Part shown: in pieces, positions 1 through 61,803 of the stretch | Layout: each line of letters begins with the position of its first letter | How positions within the stretch are numbered: position 1 is the first letter of the stretch | Program-made: the position numbers and the translations under genes | Assembly: GCA_021156365.1 (NCBI GenBank) | Contig: JAJNDK010000015.1 | Location: 1 to 64,000 of the forward strand | From: Bacteroidota bacterium | GTDB lineage: Bacteria > Bacteroidota > Bacteroidia > B-17B0 > Aurantibacillaceae | DNA: 64,000 nucleotides | Reading direction: 5' to 3' | The notes under the pieces: model-generated | What the model was told of the DNA's origin: nothing | The model's input: only the letters and a program-made list of their open reading frames with translations | Databases searched by the model: none

Positions 1-89
1 ACCAGCTCTCCATACTCTATCCAGACAGGTTTAAACCAAATAACAATGTTTTGTATTAATTTTGAGTTCTTTCATTTACACAAAATTAT

Positions 90-880
90 TTATAGTCTCG
101 GCTGCGGAAGATTTTTTTCTGAGCGCAGCTGCATTTTTTGCAGACGAATGGATATTTCTTTCCGGGCGCAGAAGATCTCTCCTAAGCTAATGCAAATTTA
201 TTCCAGGTGCGGGCGCATTCTTTACCGGTGGCAGGATATTTTTTTCCCTGCATAGAATATTTTTTACAGGATCCGGCAAATTTATTCCGGGTGCGGGCGC
301 ATTCTTTACCGGTGATTGGATATTTCTTTCCGGGCGCAGAAGATATTTTACAGGATACTGCAAATTTATTCCGGGCGCGAACACATTTTTTATGACTGAC
401 AGGATATTTCTTTCCGGGCGCAGAAGATATTTTACAGGATACTGCAAATTAATTCCGGCCACGAACACATTCTTTACCGGTGACAGGATATTTCTTTCCG
501 GGCACAGAAGATATTTTACAGGATGCTGCAAATTAATTCCGGCCACGAACACATTCTTTACGAATGATTGGAAATTTCCTTCCGTGTACCGCCCATTTTT
601 CGGAAGCATACGCGCATTCCTTCCCGGGAAAGAAGAATTTATTCGCGGATCGCCACCATTCCTGCTCCCGGACAGTGCATAAAAAAGGTAGCTGCGTTCC
701 TTTTTCTTCAGCAATACTCTTTTTTTTTGCGCTAAGCCCGCATTGTCCTCACGCAAAGCTCCTGTTTCTTCCGCAACAAGTACTTTATTTGCCCGAAATA
801 CTCCCGTGAACGTTGAGATAAGCGCTGACAAATTCATCCGGGCCACTTATCAGGCCAACATAAACACTTTTTCCGGTATG
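90..880. repeat. tandem array of degenerate 21-bp units (84-bp super-repeat in the core)
   Basis: The stretch holds no convincing gene. From about 132 to 656 it is built of 21-bp units, with units of similar register but growing divergence on both sides (about 90 to 880). Four unit types (cores TATTTCTTTCCGGGCGCAGA, GATATTTTACAGGATACTGC, AATTTATTCCGGGCGCGAAC and CATTCTTTACCGGTGACAGG) cycle, giving an 84-bp period: the first type starts at 153, 237, 321, 405, 489 and 573. Because 21 is a multiple of 3, several frames stay open, including a 219-codon frame on the minus strand at 187-846, but there is no sign that any is translated. The array lies just beyond the 3' end of the LRR/T9SS gene. T-runs recurring every 21 bp fall on the same helical face, so intrinsic curvature is plausible (inference). 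Confidence 0.9.
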
Positions 881-911: not shown

Positions 912-3323
912 TTACCGTTTAATGATCTTCTCCACATAAGTACCCGAAGCCATTATTATACGTACGAAGTAGATTCCGTTCTCCAGGCCCGAAAGATTAA
1001 ACGCGTCTTTGGAAGTATCGGCCTTTGCTTCCAGTGTTTTTTCTCCCGCCAGGTTCATGATCTCGATCTTAACCACTTGTTGCTGGCCCTGCCCTTTTAT
1101 GAAAATGGAATGGGTGAAAGGATTAGGATATACCGAATAAGGTTTTGCTCCCTTGCCGCTTACTTCGTCCAGTGCCGTAACATTCGTGATCACCGTAATG
1201 GCCTCGTTTGTTAATACCGGCAGGTTATAATCGAAATAGATAGACGCTGTTTCCTTTATCTGGTTCCCTAATTGCAGGGAAGTGGACGGTTTGATGGAAA
1301 AAGCAACCAGGCCGTGGCTCATGCTTTCGTTGGATGTGCTGTCGGGGAGCATGATATTGGGGAAGTTGAAAACGATGTACCCGTTTTGCAGCAGCTGAAA
1401 CTCGCTGTAATGGCTCGATCCGGTCACCTGGATGGTTTCGGGCAATAGGCCCGGATCTGCTTTTACAACTACTTTGATGTTCTGAGCAAGGAATGTTCCT
1501 GTGTTCTGGAAATGGACCGTATAAAACAAACGCGCAGCGCTGATGTCGGCTACTGCAAGTTGTGCCAGGTTCACTTCTATTGCATTCGGATCGAAGGATC
1601 CTACTATCGTCAGTGGATTGCATGCGTTGTTATTAAGCGGTGTTTCATCAGGGCCTGCTTCGGCGATCGCACATACGTTCACCGGCGTGCCTAATGGAAC
1701 GGTGGAATCAACATGGCATTGAAAGGCAACAGATACATTCGTCAGCGGCATTACATTGTTGAAGGTGTAGATCATCGTATCGCCGGAGATGCTCTGGTAT
1801 GCGGGCAGGGAAGTGAGCAGCTGCAGGGTATTGTCCCATTTTACTTTTAAGGTAATGTTTTGCATGGTGGTGCCCGCATTTTTTACATTCACATATACAT
1901 GGCCGTCAAAGCCCGGTCTTAACCAGCCTGCGAACATATACGTTTCGAGATCGTTTTTGTTGGGTGCGGGATAGATCGAAAAATCATTCAGCGAATCGAT
2001 CTCCCCGTATGCGTGAAACAGCACATTATATCCGGCTGCTGGCGAAGGTGTATAGTATGGCGACGGGGGATAAGGCATGATCAGGTTGGTAGTAATACCC
2101 GTGTCTGTCTGCATTGCATAAAGCCCGCTGCTGTCGGAAGAAGAATACCAGTTGTTGACCGTTGATTTGATGATTTGTTGGGCTACCGTATAATCATTGT
2201 TGTCGTTGATGCCATTTCCGTTATGGTCGATAAACACATGGCCGGTAGTGAGCGGGAAGGGCTGGCAGGCTCCTGCGCTGCTGCCGCACACCGGCAGGGT
2301 GGTGGTTAAATACGGTGGCATGTTCGGCACACAGGTTATATTGGTACTGTCTGTCAGCAAAGATTGCAGATCGTTGTGTAAAGGCGGCAGGCAATTGATA
2401 GGATTAACCTTGCAGTTTAAACGATAAGTTACCTGGGAATGCAGCGAAGAAATAGTGCAATAGGAGCAGTTCAGGTCAGAGAGTGTTGGAACAGGGACGC
2501 TTGTAATAGTGGTGTGGGAGCAATTCAGTACATTTAAATACTCAATGTCCTGCAGCTTATTAAGGTTGGAAACAGAGGTATAAGAACAGTTGACAGTTTC
2601 GAGGGTTGCGCTATACAGATCAGAAAAGTCAGGCAGGTCGGTCAGCGGATTGTTATTGCAGTACAGACGCTGGCCATAAAAGGTAGGCAGGGATGTAATA
2701 GCGTTATAGGAGCAATCGAAAATATCAAGATGCGTTGCATTCGTACTGTCGGCAAAATAAGCAGCAGGTATCGATGTGAGGTTATTATGCGCGCAATAGA
2801 AATAGGTCCATGCACCGCTGTACCAAAGCCGGGGATTCGGCGGCAGGCTGCTGAGCTGGTTATAGGAGCAATTAGTACGCGATGGCCCGACATTGATCAT
2901 GAAATTATCAAGGTTCACAAAATTGTTGTGAGAAAGATCCGAAGTATAAACGTACGTGTTCGTGATCCAGTCCGGAAGAACGGATAATTGATTGTACGAC
3001 AGATCCATGGTGAGATAACTAATGACCACCTCTACGCCGGCATTTGCAGGCAAAGAGCTGATAGCGTTGTGTGACAGATCCAGGTGATCGATCACGGCTA
3101 TGTATTGCAATCCTTCCACATTGGTAATGCCCATGTTGGAAGCATTTAATGAGTCTACACCCATTACAGACATACAGGTAGTATCCATCTGCTGGCTGGC
3201 ATTGAAGCAGGAGGGAAATTCCTGGATCAGCAGCGCCCGGAAGACAGGATCCGGAATATTTATATACTGGCCGAAAGCCGAAGTGGAAAATGCTATTAAA
3301 AGAGCAAGTAAGGTGGTTTTCAT
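912..3323 (-). CDS. leucine-rich-repeat surface protein with T9SS sorting domain
   Basis: An 803-aa secreted protein. Residues 1-18 are a Sec signal peptide (MKTTLLALLIAFSTSAFG). Residues about 60-345 hold irregular leucine-rich repeats of the Bacteroidota type, with recurring L-x-C-S-x-N-x-[LI]-x-S-L-P cores and many cysteines. About 360-410 is a small domain starting GHVFIDHNGNGIND, which resembles Ca-binding/SdrD-B-like modules. About 500-715 resembles the conserved domain often found before T9SS tails (GSFDPNAIEV motif). The last 70 residues are a type A T9SS sorting domain (YSVYPNPF, then LENGIYFVRI and a KIIKR end). By family it should be exported through the outer membrane by T9SS and cleaved or anchored. 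Ligand unknown. The 21-bp array begins directly downstream. Confidence 0.9.
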   Translation of the reverse strand: MKTTLLALLIAFSTSAFGQYINIPDPVFRALLIQEFPSCFNASQQMDTTCMSVMGVDSLNASNMGITNVEGLQYIAVIDHLDLSHNAISSLPANAGVEVVISYLTMDLSYNQLSVLPDWITNTYVYTSDLSHNNFVNLDNFMINVGPSRTNCSYNQLSSLPPNPRLWYSGAWTYFYCAHNNLTSIPAAYFADSTNATHLDIFDCSYNAITSLPTFYGQRLYCNNNPLTDLPDFSDLYSATLETVNCSYTSVSNLNKLQDIEYLNVLNCSHTTITSVPVPTLSDLNCSYCTISSLHSQVTYRLNCKVNPINCLPPLHNDLQSLLTDSTNITCVPNMPPYLTTTLPVCGSSAGACQPFPLTTGHVFIDHNGNGINDNNDYTVAQQIIKSTVNNWYSSSDSSGLYAMQTDTGITTNLIMPYPPSPYYTPSPAAGYNVLFHAYGEIDSLNDFSIYPAPNKNDLETYMFAGWLRPGFDGHVYVNVKNAGTTMQNITLKVKWDNTLQLLTSLPAYQSISGDTMIYTFNNVMPLTNVSVAFQCHVDSTVPLGTPVNVCAIAEAGPDETPLNNNACNPLTIVGSFDPNAIEVNLAQLAVADISAARLFYTVHFQNTGTFLAQNIKVVVKADPGLLPETIQVTGSSHYSEFQLLQNGYIVFNFPNIMLPDSTSNESMSHGLVAFSIKPSTSLQLGNQIKETASIYFDYNLPVLTNEAITVITNVTALDEVSGKGAKPYSVYPNPFTHSIFIKGQGQQQVVKIEIMNLAGEKTLEAKADTSKDAFNLSGLENGIYFVRIIMASGTYVEKIIKR

Positions 3324-30200: not shown

Positions 30201-33200
30201 CTCGCAGCTTCAGGTTATTGCAACCGGGAACACAAGCACTGCCAGCACCTATTCGTTCTCTGCCGGTTCGGGCACTTACACCCCGATCGGAGGAACTGTA
30301 TTGACGGGCGGTACCATGCTCGATGATGACGTTGGAGTTGGAAATCTTCCTATCGGATTTAATTTCAGCTACAATGGCAACTATTTCACCGTGTTTGGTT
30401 TAAGGTCAAATGGGTTGATCGAACTTGGACAAACAACAGCTACCCTTGCCGGTTTCGCTGGAAATGCACTTGCAACAAATGCAAACTGTATTGCTCCACT
30501 CTGGGACGATAACAATACAACCGGTGCAACAGTCAGCTACCAGACTACAGGTACTGCTCCAAACCGGATCTTAACCGTACAATGGACAAATCTACATGTG
30601 GGTGGCTCAGGATCCGGAACAAATCCTACTATCAACATGCAGATTTTACTGTATGAGGCCAGCGGGCGTATCCAGTTTGTCTATGGTTCTACAAGCGCTG
30701 CGCTTGTAAGTACATCCGCTTCTATCGGTATTTCGGGAGCAGTTGGAAATTATAAAAGCGTAACTCCGCTGTTGCCTGTTACAAGCTCTACTGTAAGCAG
30801 CAGCACAGAAAATACAGGTATCAACTCAGCTACTAACATTCCTTCCGGAACTATCTATACATTTGATTACGCCCCCGTTGTATCAACAAATACCTATACC
30901 TGGACTCCTTCGACTTTCCTGAACGATCCTGCCATCGTTAATCCAATAGCGAATGGTGTTACTTCCACTACTGTTTATACAGTATCAGTATCTAATGGCG
31001 TATGTACTGCTACAGGAAGTGTAACAGTAAATGCTGATCCACTGTCAGCGGTAGCCGTAACAGCAACTTCTACAACACTTTGTGCAGGGGCTTCTTCCAC
31101 ACTGACAGCAACACCAACCGGAGGCGGAACCCCATACACGTATGTTTGGATGCCGGGCGGTGTGACTACCAACACTGTTACTGTAAGTCCTGCTTCAAGC
31201 GACGTATATACAGTTACTGTAAATGACGCTTGCGGTGCTACTTCCAGCAATACCGTATCGATCAACGTAAATGCCCTCCCTGTACTAACGGCTACAGCAA
31301 CAGCTAACTTCTACTGTACTCCCGGAAGTCCGGCTATTGCTATCACTGCCAATGGCGCTGATACATACACATGGTTACCTGCAGCAGGGCTGAGTGCGAC
31401 TACAGGCTCTGCAGTGAATGCAAATCCTGCTTCAAGCACAACCTACACCGTAACCGGTACAGATCTGCTGACAGGATGTGTGAATACAGCAACTGTTTCT
31501 ATTGCAGCTGTTCCTGCTATAACAGGAGTAACTGCATCTGTAAGCAATGCTACTATCTGTGCGGGTGACACGATCGACCTTACATCTACAGCAAACTCCG
31601 CTGTTACATTCCTTACGGAGAATTTCAACGGAGCAACCAACAGCTGGACTACAACGAACACATCCACAACTACAGGCGCAGGAAACGTTGCGCTGGCAGC
31701 CTGGACGCTGAGACCGAATGGTCATAATCCCGGTGGTTACTGGACCAGTGTTGCGGGCATTAGTGCTATCAACAGCAACGATGCGAGCCAGTTCTATCTG
31801 ACCAATTCGGATGTGGCAGGAAGCGGAAATGTTACTGATGTTACACTTACCTCTCCGCGGATCGATGTATCAATCGCATCTACTCTCAATCTGTCCTTCT
31901 ATCATTTCTTCCGTTTCAATGCCGCAGGTGATTATGGCAGGGTGCAGGTTTCTACCGACGGTACTACCTGGACAACGGTTCAATCATATACCGCGACTAC
32001 AGGTGCAGCTACCAATTTCGCTCAGGCAAATCTGAATCTGAACACTTATGTTGGTAATGATACTTTGTATATCCGCTACACTTTCCACGCTGCGTGGGGT
32101 TATGGATGGGCAGTTGACAATGTTGTCCTGAACGGAACAGCTACGAATATGAACTATGCCTGGACATCGGCACCTGCAGGCTTTACTTCTGCCATGCAAA
32201 ATCCGGTTGATGTTGTACCAACAGCTTCCACTTCTTATTCAGTTACAGTATCAAACACGTTCGGATGTTCTGCATCTGCTACAACAAGTGTTACTGTGAA
32301 TGCAGTTCCAACAGTTAGCTTAGGAAACGATACGGCACTTTGCGCGGTTGGCCTTCCTGTGACACTGAATGCAGGCAACGCAGGCGCTGGCTTCTTATGG
32401 AGCACAACTGCAACTACACAAACGATCTCTGTAAACGCCGGCGGTTCTTACCATGTGGCAGTAACAGATGCAAACGGATGCGTGGGAAGAGATACACTGG
32501 TTGTTACTGCTAACCCTGCTCCGGTTGTTGCTTTAGGAACTGATACGATCCGTTGCGGTGGTTCAGTAACCCTGGACGCAGCTAACGCAGGTTCGACTTA
32601 CGAATGGAACGATATGACTACTGCTCAGATGCTTACAGTTACTGCTTCCGGAACATATAGCGTAGTGGTAACAGACGCAAATGGCTGCGAAGGCTCTGAC
32701 GTTATTGATGTAACGATCAACGATATTCCTGTTGTTTCTTTAGGCAACGATACAGCGCTTTGTTCAGCTGGTCTTCCTTTGACCCTGGATGCCGGCAATG
32801 CAGGCGCTGATTTCTTATGGAGCACAACTGCAACTACACAAACGATTTCTGCAAATGCAGGTGGTTCTTACGATGTAGTCGTAACAGGTACAAACGGTTG
32901 TGTAGGAAAAGATACCCTGACCGTTACTGTAAATGCTTCTCCGGTGGTTGCTTTAGGAACTGATACGATCCGTTGCGGTGGTTCTGTAACCCTGGATGCA
33001 GGGAATGCAGGTTCGACTTACGAATGGAACGATATGACTACGGCTCAGACACTGGTGGCAACTACTTCCGGAACATACAGCGTAATGGTAACAGATGGAA
33101 ACGGCTGCGAAGGCTCTGACGCGATCGATGTGACTATCAATACTATTCCAACTGTTACTTTAGGTAACGATACCACTGTTTGCGTTGGTGCGCTTACTCT

Positions 33201-34053
33201 GGATGCAGGTAATGCGGGTGCTGATTTCTTATGGAACACCACTGCGGCTACACAAACGATCAACGTGAGCACGAACGGCCAGTATTTTGTAGAAGTTACA
33301 AATGCCCAGAATTGTTCTGCAACAGATACGATCACTGTGACGTTTGCTCCTGCTATTGATGTGAACCTCGGAAACGACTCTGCAATCTGTGCAAGTGTGA
33401 ATATCGTTCTCGATGCTCAGAATTCAGGCTCTGCTTATGTATGGAATGACAACTCGAACGCATCTGTCCTGACAGTTATGGAGCCCGGCATTTACTTTGT
33501 AGAAGTGACTTCTGCAGGCGGTTGCGTGGCACAGGATACCATTGTGTTCACCGACAATTCTCCTTTGGTAACACTTTCTCTCCCATTCACAACAACCTGT
33601 GAGAACATAGCAGTGAACCCGCTTTCCGGTGGAGCTCCTGCTAATGGTATCTACAGCGGAACAGGTGTAACAGGCACAAACTTCAATGCCGGTGCAGCGG
33701 GTAACTACGACATCATCTATACTTATACAGATGGTGTAACAGGCTGTTCGTCAGCTGATACACAAACTGTTGTGGTTGATCCTTGTATCGGTGTGAAAGA
33801 CCTGGGTGCTGCTGCTTCTATCTCGGTAGCTCCGAACCCGACTACCGGTTATTTCTCCATCCTGTCTCCATCCGTTAGCAATGTGGTGAAAGCTGAAATG
33901 TATACAGTAGAAGGTCAGCTGATCTACTCCGAAACATTGAAAGGAAGAGAAGAATACGAGATGAATATCACTAACCTGCCCAACGCGATCTACTACCTGA
34001 GACTGACAGTTGACGGTGGAACCAGCGTGGTGAAAGTAGTGAAACAGCAATAA
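27298..34053 (+). CDS. giant T9SS-secreted multidomain surface protein (2251 aa)
   Basis: Signal peptide about residues 1-35. Residues 36-270 are a beta-sandwich (SFTFRFMGTNYTTFSANDNG); 280-730 look like a right-handed beta-helix with N-rich rungs (NNTIKNCTITLNRTNTSSRA). Ig/PKD-like domains follow (CSGLGTTLGFNGTSTDAGVV), then a second copy of the sandwich (about 960-1180) and more PKD-like domains. A MAM/choice-of-anchor-J-like domain covers about 1440-1615 (ENFNGATNSW to WGYGWAVDNV). Six Ig-like repeats with paired cysteines span about 1664-2090 (SLGNDTALC, TLDAGNAG, GCVGKDT). A type A T9SS tail begins near 2175 (VAPNPTTGYFS). It is probably an adhesin or gliding-related surface filament. 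Repeats 1-2 and 3-4 are near-identical at DNA level with a 420-bp offset. Confidence 0.9.
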   Translation: MMNYKKLQRSARISSPVLSCLLLCLLFLGTKILAQQSSHYTFSTGNNASLALDLNGNTIDMSTGTTQLVAANVDDASSAAQGLDLVAGTSFTFRFMGTNYTTFSANDNGVMALGATVATNAYTIGANTVATIAPFGNDMKTGTNGKVHAKIFGSAPNRTLVIEWQNVMVRYLAANGNGTGTFQIRLYETSNNFEYVYGDMATNTSTPTDYYIGFSNNTTVDNVMSVNTTTQAESVYYITNNSYTASSTVAPLHSTANGSRRYYLFTAPDALTPLNGPYTVDNTMATGGLNFRTIKDAVRALNVRGISGPVTFNVTAGQTFSEEIMPVRMTGTAANTITFQKSGSGANPEIRKAGGTFGADAGIYFRGGDYYTFDGINVTATNTTVEYGYYVFNTSATDGAQNNTIKNCTITLNRTNTSSRAIYQNVATTPTSAAGANSNNKYYNLNIRNTNGGILLTGNATFPDLSCEIGTTACNIFNSIGDPAVANDIGNTGTAAFGIRATNQSGVSIFNNNIRNVTASSATIDGIFIETFQGTSSVYNNKIQTIRNSSTTNTSNSASGIRASHTTTGTHALRIYNNAISEMTSAYTGAASATRTLKGIYISGTGGAATQSYQIYNNTVAMNGSGSLTLSSVCFEISTASGPVYNLANNIFANLTPTQAGTARHLGIFSTSATAFGSAGTTSNNNNIFILNDAGTTGFPVLGNATNYNTVAAWTTASTYEAASLSLNPNFTVYPTDLHAGNGGLDGTAAVLQAFVTNDLDCAARTDNDFGAYNITTCTGTPTAGTISGVNAVCSGLGTTLGFNGTSTDAGVVYQWASSATPGGPYTTMLGTLNTQATGNLTASTYYILTATCIGSGLSATTPEKAVLVNANPVVGLTSSSPVYCFPAAGVSLTASNAATYTWTPVTGLSATTGANVSASPTANTTYTVTGTDGNGCIGTANIAVASNTMPFIASATATPSSVCSGGNSQLQVIATGNTSTASTYSFSAGSGTYTPIGGTVLTGGTMLDDDVGVGNLPIGFNFSYNGNYFTVFGLRSNGLIELGQTTATLAGFAGNALATNANCIAPLWDDNNTTGATVSYQTTGTAPNRILTVQWTNLHVGGSGSGTNPTINMQILLYEASGRIQFVYGSTSAALVSTSASIGISGAVGNYKSVTPLLPVTSSTVSSSTENTGINSATNIPSGTIYTFDYAPVVSTNTYTWTPSTFLNDPAIVNPIANGVTSTTVYTVSVSNGVCTATGSVTVNADPLSAVAVTATSTTLCAGASSTLTATPTGGGTPYTYVWMPGGVTTNTVTVSPASSDVYTVTVNDACGATSSNTVSINVNALPVLTATATANFYCTPGSPAIAITANGADTYTWLPAAGLSATTGSAVNANPASSTTYTVTGTDLLTGCVNTATVSIAAVPAITGVTASVSNATICAGDTIDLTSTANSAVTFLTENFNGATNSWTTTNTSTTTGAGNVALAAWTLRPNGHNPGGYWTSVAGISAINSNDASQFYLTNSDVAGSGNVTDVTLTSPRIDVSIASTLNLSFYHFFRFNAAGDYGRVQVSTDGTTWTTVQSYTATTGAATNFAQANLNLNTYVGNDTLYIRYTFHAAWGYGWAVDNVVLNGTATNMNYAWTSAPAGFTSAMQNPVDVVPTASTSYSVTVSNTFGCSASATTSVTVNAVPTVSLGNDTALCAVGLPVTLNAGNAGAGFLWSTTATTQTISVNAGGSYHVAVTDANGCVGRDTLVVTANPAPVVALGTDTIRCGGSVTLDAANAGSTYEWNDMTTAQMLTVTASGTYSVVVTDANGCEGSDVIDVTINDIPVVSLGNDTALCSAGLPLTLDAGNAGADFLWSTTATTQTISANAGGSYDVVVTGTNGCVGKDTLTVTVNASPVVALGTDTIRCGGSVTLDAGNAGSTYEWNDMTTAQTLVATTSGTYSVMVTDGNGCEGSDAIDVTINTIPTVTLGNDTTVCVGALTLDAGNAGADFLWNTTAATQTINVSTNGQYFVEVTNAQNCSATDTITVTFAPAIDVNLGNDSAICASVNIVLDAQNSGSAYVWNDNSNASVLTVMEPGIYFVEVTSAGGCVAQDTIVFTDNSPLVTLSLPFTTTCENIAVNPLSGGAPANGIYSGTGVTGTNFNAGAAGNYDIIYTYTDGVTGCSSADTQTVVVDPCIGVKDLGAAASISVAPNPTTGYFSILSPSVSNVVKAEMYTVEGQLIYSETLKGREEYEMNITNLPNAIYYLRLTVDGGTSVVKVVKQQ

Positions 34054-60640: not shown

Positions 60641-60973
60641 ATGAAACATTTACTTATCCTTTGCAGCCTTTTCATCTGCTTTTCCGCAAAAGCCCAAAAG
60701 ATCTATTCCGTAGATTCCGATTACAAGGCCGACATCAAAGTATTCGTAGTAGACGCCGACTACAAGGCAGATCTGCTGGTGTATAAAGTAAATGCCGATT
60801 ACAAAGCAAAGGACAATACCGGCCTTTGGTTTTTTGTTGATTCGGACTATAAAGCCAAAAAGAAAATATTTTTTGTGAATGCCGACTACAAAGCAGATCT
60901 GAAAATATTTTTTGTAGACTCAGATTACAAAGCAAAATGGGTGAAAACCGAAAAGCAGCATTTGTTGTATTGA
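60641..60973 (+). CDS. DUF6150-family exported repeat protein
   Basis: 110 aa. Signal peptide MKHLLILCSLFICFSAKAQK. The mature 90 residues are six short repeats of the form V-[DN]-[AS]-D-Y-K-A-[DK] followed by a beta strand (IKVFVV, LLVYKV, NTGLWFF, KKIFFV, LKIFFV, then WVKTEKQ). This is the architecture I know as DUF6150. Such 11-12-residue periodicity suggests a small beta-solenoid or propeller-like sheet. The role is unknown. It converges on the DUF6157 gene. Confidence 0.82.
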   Translation: MKHLLILCSLFICFSAKAQKIYSVDSDYKADIKVFVVDADYKADLLVYKVNADYKAKDNTGLWFFVDSDYKAKKKIFFVNADYKADLKIFFVDSDYKAKWVKTEKQHLLY

Positions 60974-61435: not shown

Positions 61436-61472
61436 AAGGAGGAGTGACAACCTTATGTCAGTAGTGTTAATT

Positions 61473-61803
61473 TTTTGCGGAAGGAAATAAGCGGATCGCA
61501 GCAAAAGGCAAGCAGATCGCAGCAAATGATAAGCGAATCGCGGAAAGAAATAAACGGATCGCCGTAAAAATTAAGGGAATCGCCGCAAAGGGCAAGCAGA
61601 TCGCCGCAAATGATAAGCGAATCGCGGAAGGAAATAAGCGAATCGCCGCAAAGGGCAAGCGGATCGCCGCAAATGATAAGCGAATTGCAGCAAAAGGCAA
61701 GCAGATCGCGGAAAGAAATAAGCGGATCGCCGCAAATGATAAGCGAATCACCGCAGAAGAGAGAGGATTGCAGCAGGAATTCTATTTATTGCGGAAATAA
61801 ATA
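61473..61803. repeat. tandem array of 21-bp units, second locus
   Basis: Thirteen clear units start at 61489, 61510 and so on to 61741 at exact 21-bp steps, with decayed flanks to 61803. Consensus AAGCRRATCGCCGCAAANGR-like. Three unit endings (AAAGGC, AAATGAT, GAAAGAAAT) alternate in a rough 63-bp cycle. Reverse-complemented units (ATTTCTTTCCGCGATCTGCT) share ATTTCTTTCCG with the main unit of the array at 90-880. All frames stay open; the plus frame reads as a perfect heptad (K-x-I-A-x-x-x) but lacks a start codon, with TAA just before it. It fills the gap between the ABM and DUF6157 genes. Confidence 0.92.

Follow-up and report, generated by a model that had tools for sequence, protein, structure and literature searches.

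The window analyzed here, positions 1–64000 of contig C2 (93,579 bp) in a Bacteroidota assembly of 5.31 Mb and 23 contigs, opens with the end of an IS256-like insertion sequence and, within 8 bp of it, a tandem array of 21-bp units. This array (array 1) is one of a set of dispersed, non-coding intergenic minisatellites that hold an exact 21-bp period, with higher orders of 42 and 84 bp, and whose unit is mostly not shared between loci. On balance, we favor the explanation that these helix-phased, non-coding intergenic minisatellites are preferred landing sites for IS256-like elements, which insert in or beside them; array 1 would lie against such an end because the elements land there preferentially.

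Array 1 and the insertion sequence end beside it

The features of the window that bear on this proposal are as follows.

1–99, plus strand: 3′ end of IS-Y, a multicopy IS256-like insertion sequence (identity at five contig ends; translation)
76–99, plus strand: terminal inverted repeat of IS-Y, outer end toward array 1 (matches the PF00872-bearing G003 element and other IS ends)
100–107, plus strand: GGCTGCGG, presumed to be the 8-bp target duplication (flanks of other copies match exactly over 8 bp)
108–674, plus strand: 21-bp minisatellite, array 1 (TRF, unit profile, core-motif counts)
187–846, minus strand: 219-aa ORF over array 1, judged spurious (no Pfam family; no codon-position bias)
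675–800, plus strand: possible decayed units, weak (rows 696, 717, 738, and 780)
912–3323, minus strand: neighbor gene with leucine-rich repeats, DUF7619, and a Por secretion tail; array 1 lies beyond its 3′ end
61467–61800, plus strand: array 2, unit type AAGCGGATCGCCGCAAATGAT, no IS adjoining (TRF 61487–61760, 13 copies; lag-21 identity)

By a unit profile, array 1 consists of 27 in-register units of 21 bp at 108–674 with an 84-bp higher order, and TRF run on the window reports period 84 with 4.9 copies at 150–561 (score 523). With the profile trained on 24 units (150–653), and those 24 rows therefore scored against themselves, 26 of the 27 rows fall in the top 1% of the window and the last row (654) in the top 2.1%. 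A GGATATTTC-type unit recurs, with variants, at 150, 234, 318, 402, 486, and 570, and the core ATTYNTTNCCGG has eight matches in the window, all inside array 1, against 0.40 expected. The initial annotation had described a strict 21-bp register over more than 500 bp and a first unit type returning six times at exactly 84 bp, and both descriptions are borne out. Its extent of 90–880 holds for 108–674, but positions 90–99 belong to the IS256-like end and 675–884 carries weak traces: the four rows listed above, of ten, reach the top 0.5–3.6% of profile scores, and the register of array 1 scores not clearly above other phases there. Its count of about 35 units is therefore too high; 27 are clear, with perhaps a few decayed and weak ones at 675–800. 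The initial annotation did not note the IS256-like end, array 2, or the wider set of arrays in the genome. The units are contiguous when read from the sequence, and the lack of spacers rules out a CRISPR-like array. A structured RNA was rejected as well, the window having no Rfam match at the gathering score.

Array 1 looks non-coding on sequence criteria, and the ORF over it looks spurious. The 219-aa ORF matches no Pfam entry with an E value of 1 or less, and a Pfam scan of the minus-strand ORFs over arrays 1 and 2 returned no match. Over five 84-bp rows, the variable columns number 11, 11, and 10 at codon positions 1, 2, and 3. Alignments of homologous array stretches contain frame-breaking gaps: 248 against 250 bases for C21/C4, 235 against 234 for C12 and the end of C2, and 175 against 176 for C16/C3. 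A protein-coding repeat was rejected on this absence of codon-position bias and of a kept frame, and the same evidence supports the earlier suspicion that a false 219-aa protein would be called here. Twenty-one base pairs are also seven codons, and the arrays could in principle be live or decayed genes for heptad-repeat proteins. By eye, one frame of array 2 does read as regular KRIAAND-like heptads, and the array at C7:107393 reads as EIAQAAV-like heptads in one frame. Such genes are nonetheless very improbable in our estimation, given the even spread of variable columns, the frame-breaking gaps, and the missing Pfam matches; moreover, the heptad frame of array 2 has, by eye, no usable start codon.

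The bases that precede array 1 mark it as the neighbor of a multicopy element. Bases 1–98 (or 2–98) occur with 100% identity at five places, all of them contig ends, that of the window included. Positions 3–59 translate to QLSILYPDRFKPNNNVLY followed by a stop, the presumed C terminus of the IS-Y transposase, which by eye resembles the last residues of PF00872 transposases in two other genomes (G003 and G030); the match, short and not significant alone, scores 29 against a mean of 20 and a maximum of 34 for shuffles. A second element, IS-X, has a 3′ end that reads GGWKLISSQLMIIFEDR, by eye a clearer PF00872-like C terminus than that of IS-Y when set against the same two genomes, and its terminal inverted repeats are of the same general type as those of IS-Y and the IS256 family. 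The inverted repeat of IS-Y matches that of the PF00872-bearing element of G003 (GAGACTATAAATAATTTTGTGTAA versus GAGCCTATAAATAATTTTGTGTAA). A PF00872 search of the assembly found no match, only element ends being present, and the interiors of these multicopy elements would therefore seem not to have been assembled. Because the window starts at a contig end (C2:1), the far flank of its insertion is out of view.

Insertion sequences of the IS256 family make an 8-bp target duplication. Fifteen contig ends carry IS-Y or IS-X ends, and the first eight bases outward are identical in five pairs of flanks among them:

C12 start and C8 start: AAGTGTTG
C15 start and C16 start: CAAATGCC
C6 end and C23 end: GGAACCAA
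C8 end and C18 start: CGGGGAGC
C21 end and C4 end: CCACAATG

We read these exact pairs as target duplications, from which five IS copies can putatively be rebuilt from two flanks each and which therefore fix the element boundaries. The other five IS ends are unpaired, and for the GGCTGCGG of the window no partner flank was found in the assembly. The IS-X copy that links C12 to C8 has an array on one side and, by eye, an apparent truncated gene end (...FSEALSLIVV, then a stop) on the other. At the ends of C10 (L215) and C14 (L054), similar array stretches stand beside opposite IS-Y ends with unmatched 8-bp flanks, an arrangement that perhaps arose by recombination between IS copies.

Arrays of the same period in this genome and others

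Across the 1.68 of 5.31 Mb sampled, 23 arrays passed threshold, 21 of them outside long ORFs; the remaining two, both on C22, lie within ORFs of 641 and 275 aa and were excluded from the unit, homology, and curvature counts. About 8 of the 21 were met by way of fetched IS ends, contig ends, and inverted-repeat loci, and the unselected sample is C7:1-400000. This 400 kb holds five arrays at period 21. Those five loci also score at period 42, and no other period between 10 and 60 bp gives more than one array. Extrapolated, the density on C7 gives ∼60–70 arrays per genome. Around the 12 arrays for which both neighboring genes were available, the genes are in tandem in seven cases, convergent in four, and divergent in one.

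Consensus units differ widely between loci, and the 21-bp period stays constant. A reversed-sequence blastn control scored high: among the matches listed, its lowest E values were 3e-20 when an array was compared with itself and 2e-16 when two different arrays were compared, and therefore only long alignments above 75% were relied on. Two pairs of arrays are related, those at the end of C2 and on C12 (75% over 235 bp) and those at C16:663937 and C3:351629 (76% over 176 bp). Weaker array-to-array matches do not exceed the control, and one of the counted arrays (C16:138504) is a weak A-rich match. Array 2 of the window has a 63/84-bp higher order and lies between a DUF6157 gene and a small gene. 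It aligns with the array at C7:674230 at 77% over 82 bp (75% over 91 bp in another comparison), and the two are probably related. At the locus of array 2, the same-genus genome G002 has two neighbor genes of one side and then other genes. Repeats of other kinds in the window are a 110-aa DUF6150 protein (60641–60973; Pfam E 2.3e-31) made of VDSDYKA repeats of ∼39 bp and a 420-bp tandem repeat of 2.3 copies at 32306–33261.

The inverted-repeat pattern was found in 6 of 60 genomes searched, our own included. The other five hold 12 inverted-repeat sites, and six of these directly face a 21- or 42-bp array: two of two in G007, which belongs to the same family as our genome, one of one in G030 and three of seven in G033, both of other families, and none of one in each of G002 and G039. 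In 372 kb of G033, partly selected for holding inverted repeats, there are seven matches at period 21, nine at 42, and at most four at any other period; one G033 locus (L129:2011) resembles a 7-bp repeat. Scans of 200 kb of G002 and 100 kb of G009 gave none at period 21 and one weak match each at 42. A relative, G025, has several intergenic 7-bp tandem repeats (L200–L204, G025:C23) instead of 21-bp arrays, and the visible flanks of two full IS256-like elements, in G003 and G030, hold no array. Judged by one neighbor gene, the nearest relative with a name is a Bacteroidota MAG (70% identity). Some loci in these genomes have an unusual architecture. Paired inverted repeats stand head to head as ∼41-bp palindromes, like an IS without its interior, at L104 (G002:C22:71033) and L109 (G007:C42:15204), and at L116 14100–14750 (G033:C3) similar 21-bp arrays flank a solitary inverted repeat, with ∼100 bp from the left array to the repeat.

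Insertion sequences at the arrays

Within the outward 400 bp, a 21/42-bp signal of at least 0.5 was seen at 8 of 15 IS ends and at none of 30 other contig ends (46 ends in total; the C19 end was left out of the 31 others), against 0.7% of 4,000 random background windows. At the remaining seven IS ends, no strong array signal was seen on that side. Counted by 3′ ends, there are nine IS copies (four IS-X and five IS-Y), and eight of these lie within 100 bp of an array. The expected rate is 4.9% of intergenic bases that near an array, a figure that comes from crude gene calls and includes the IS-adjoining arrays themselves; the binomial probability is 2.8e-10, or 1.9e-5 if the rate is taken as 20%. 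Two of the eight copies sit 46 and 86 bp from the array and not inside it. At C21/C4 the IS is inside the array, which is in register on both flanks across the 8-bp duplication, and there the array is therefore older than the IS. Solitary inverted repeats adjoin arrays at 0 bp at C7:348157, C20:96761, and C4:22697, and a fourth (C7:620876) is 106 bp from a weak array; an inverted-repeat-like site at C3:300529 (score 20.6) has no array.

Whether elements enter the arrays at a fixed phase was also considered. Array phase relative to the inverted repeat was significant at first (p = 0.0002 for 18 sites, and p = 0.001 for 15 when the three sites with an array start more than 25 bp from the repeat are left out). 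Once related arrays were removed, which takes out 4 or 7 more sites, the result was only borderline (p = 0.05 for 11 sites and p = 0.07 for 8), and a fixed insertion phase was rejected.

The main rival to a transposase preference is shared use of safe gene gaps. The arrays would then be inert products of slippage, the IS would survive only in inert gaps, and the 21-bp length would descend from a few ancestral arrays. The two related pairs of arrays and the unremarkable orientation of neighboring genes agree with this account. However, confining the comparison to intergenic DNA, with the crude gene calls noted above, still leaves an expectation of ∼5% against eight of nine copies observed, and the units of most array pairs are no more alike than the reversed-sequence control. 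We regard the absence of targeting as unlikely. Causation could also run the other way, with IS256 activity as the source of the arrays: at an inverted-repeat end, ∼21 bp of flanking DNA would be copied repeatedly by abortive strand transfer or by replication, the letters being local and the length set by the transposase complex. Such an origin would fit the mostly locus-specific unit letters, the solitary inverted repeats that adjoin arrays at 0 bp in three places, and the array starts within 20 bp of the inverted repeat at 15 of 18 sites, all 18 of which were picked for a visible array. It is harder to reconcile with C21/C4, where the register is kept on both sides of the duplication, with the four of five arrays in the unselected 400 kb that have no recognizable inverted repeat nearby, and with unit similarity that shows no consistent gradient away from the inverted repeat; we hold it to be quite improbable.

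Under the landing-site explanation that we favor, arrays would grow and become homogeneous by slippage or unequal crossing-over, and the 21-bp length would be kept as two helical turns, such that each unit presents the same face and bends add up. The transposase may then favor the stacked or bent DNA of the array. A more tentative idea is that a molecular ruler sets the length: a protein with a two-turn footprint, either a nucleoid protein or the IS256 transposase, would make or maintain arrays from any DNA, and IS landing would be a consequence of this protein or of the phased structure. If a ruler protein sets the unit, length would be conserved and the letters would be free.

Helical phasing and related systems

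Because B-DNA makes two turns in 21 bp, the units face one way and any bend adds up. Curvature was expressed as the shortening predicted with a wedge model. For array 1 the predicted value is 1.30, which exceeds the 95th percentile of the genome (1.22) and drops to 1.13–1.14 when the period is set to 20 or 22 bp. For 28 arrays, the median is 1.14 against 1.08 for the genome and falls to ∼1.09–1.10 with 20- or 22-bp units (p about 1e-6 for the loss). The strong curvature proposed at the outset is therefore predicted, and depends on the period, for array 1, but only 11 of the 28 arrays exceed the 95th percentile of the genome. Phasing of A+T at 10.5 bp within units was rejected (p = 0.93); taken separately, T (p = 0.011) and A (p = 0.046) reach nominal significance among 50 uncorrected tests. 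On this model, curvature may contribute to the pattern.

Some insertion sequences land in intergenic repeats such as REP/BIME. The elements described here would likewise be IS that prefer a dispersed intergenic repeat, but the target of REP/BIME-directed elements is a conserved sequence, whereas here the common feature is the period. In a survey of 7,006 prokaryotic genomes, heptamers are reported to be the commonest tandem repeats between genes (PMC6344855). The 21-bp arrays resemble those repeats in being intergenic with one favored period, and 21 is 3 × 7; unlike them, they show no 14-bp periodicity in our C7 sample, where the scan ran from 10 to 60 bp, although G025 does show 7-bp repeats. 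The nearest described case that we found is BrickBuilt of Porphyromonas gingivalis, an intergenic 23-nt minisatellite with 19 copies in one genome and one shared unit; it is carried within a MITE whose terminal repeats resemble those of the IS5 family (PMC4596501). Both are intergenic minisatellites of about two helical turns, found in Bacteroidota and tied to transposon inverted repeats. The arrays described here differ in having a period of 21 and locus-dependent letters, in lying outside the repeat, and in being tied to an IS that is IS256-like. Membership in BrickBuilt was rejected on the period of 21 and the mostly unrelated units, and a MITE enclosing the array was rejected because the outer end of the inverted repeat faces the array, which is the wrong orientation. 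In the accessible portions of the open-licence literature on 21-bp intergenic repeats in Bacteroidetes and on IS256 and bent target DNA, the pattern is not described.

In practical terms, such arrays yield spurious ORFs in annotation, and IS copies inside them break assemblies. Dispersed minisatellites usually share sequence, whereas many of the arrays here share mainly a two-turn length, with a transposon family at them. This opens two questions to experiment. One is how a tandem repeat comes to have a set length with no constraint on its letters; the other is whether target choice by a transposase can be guided by the periodicity of DNA.
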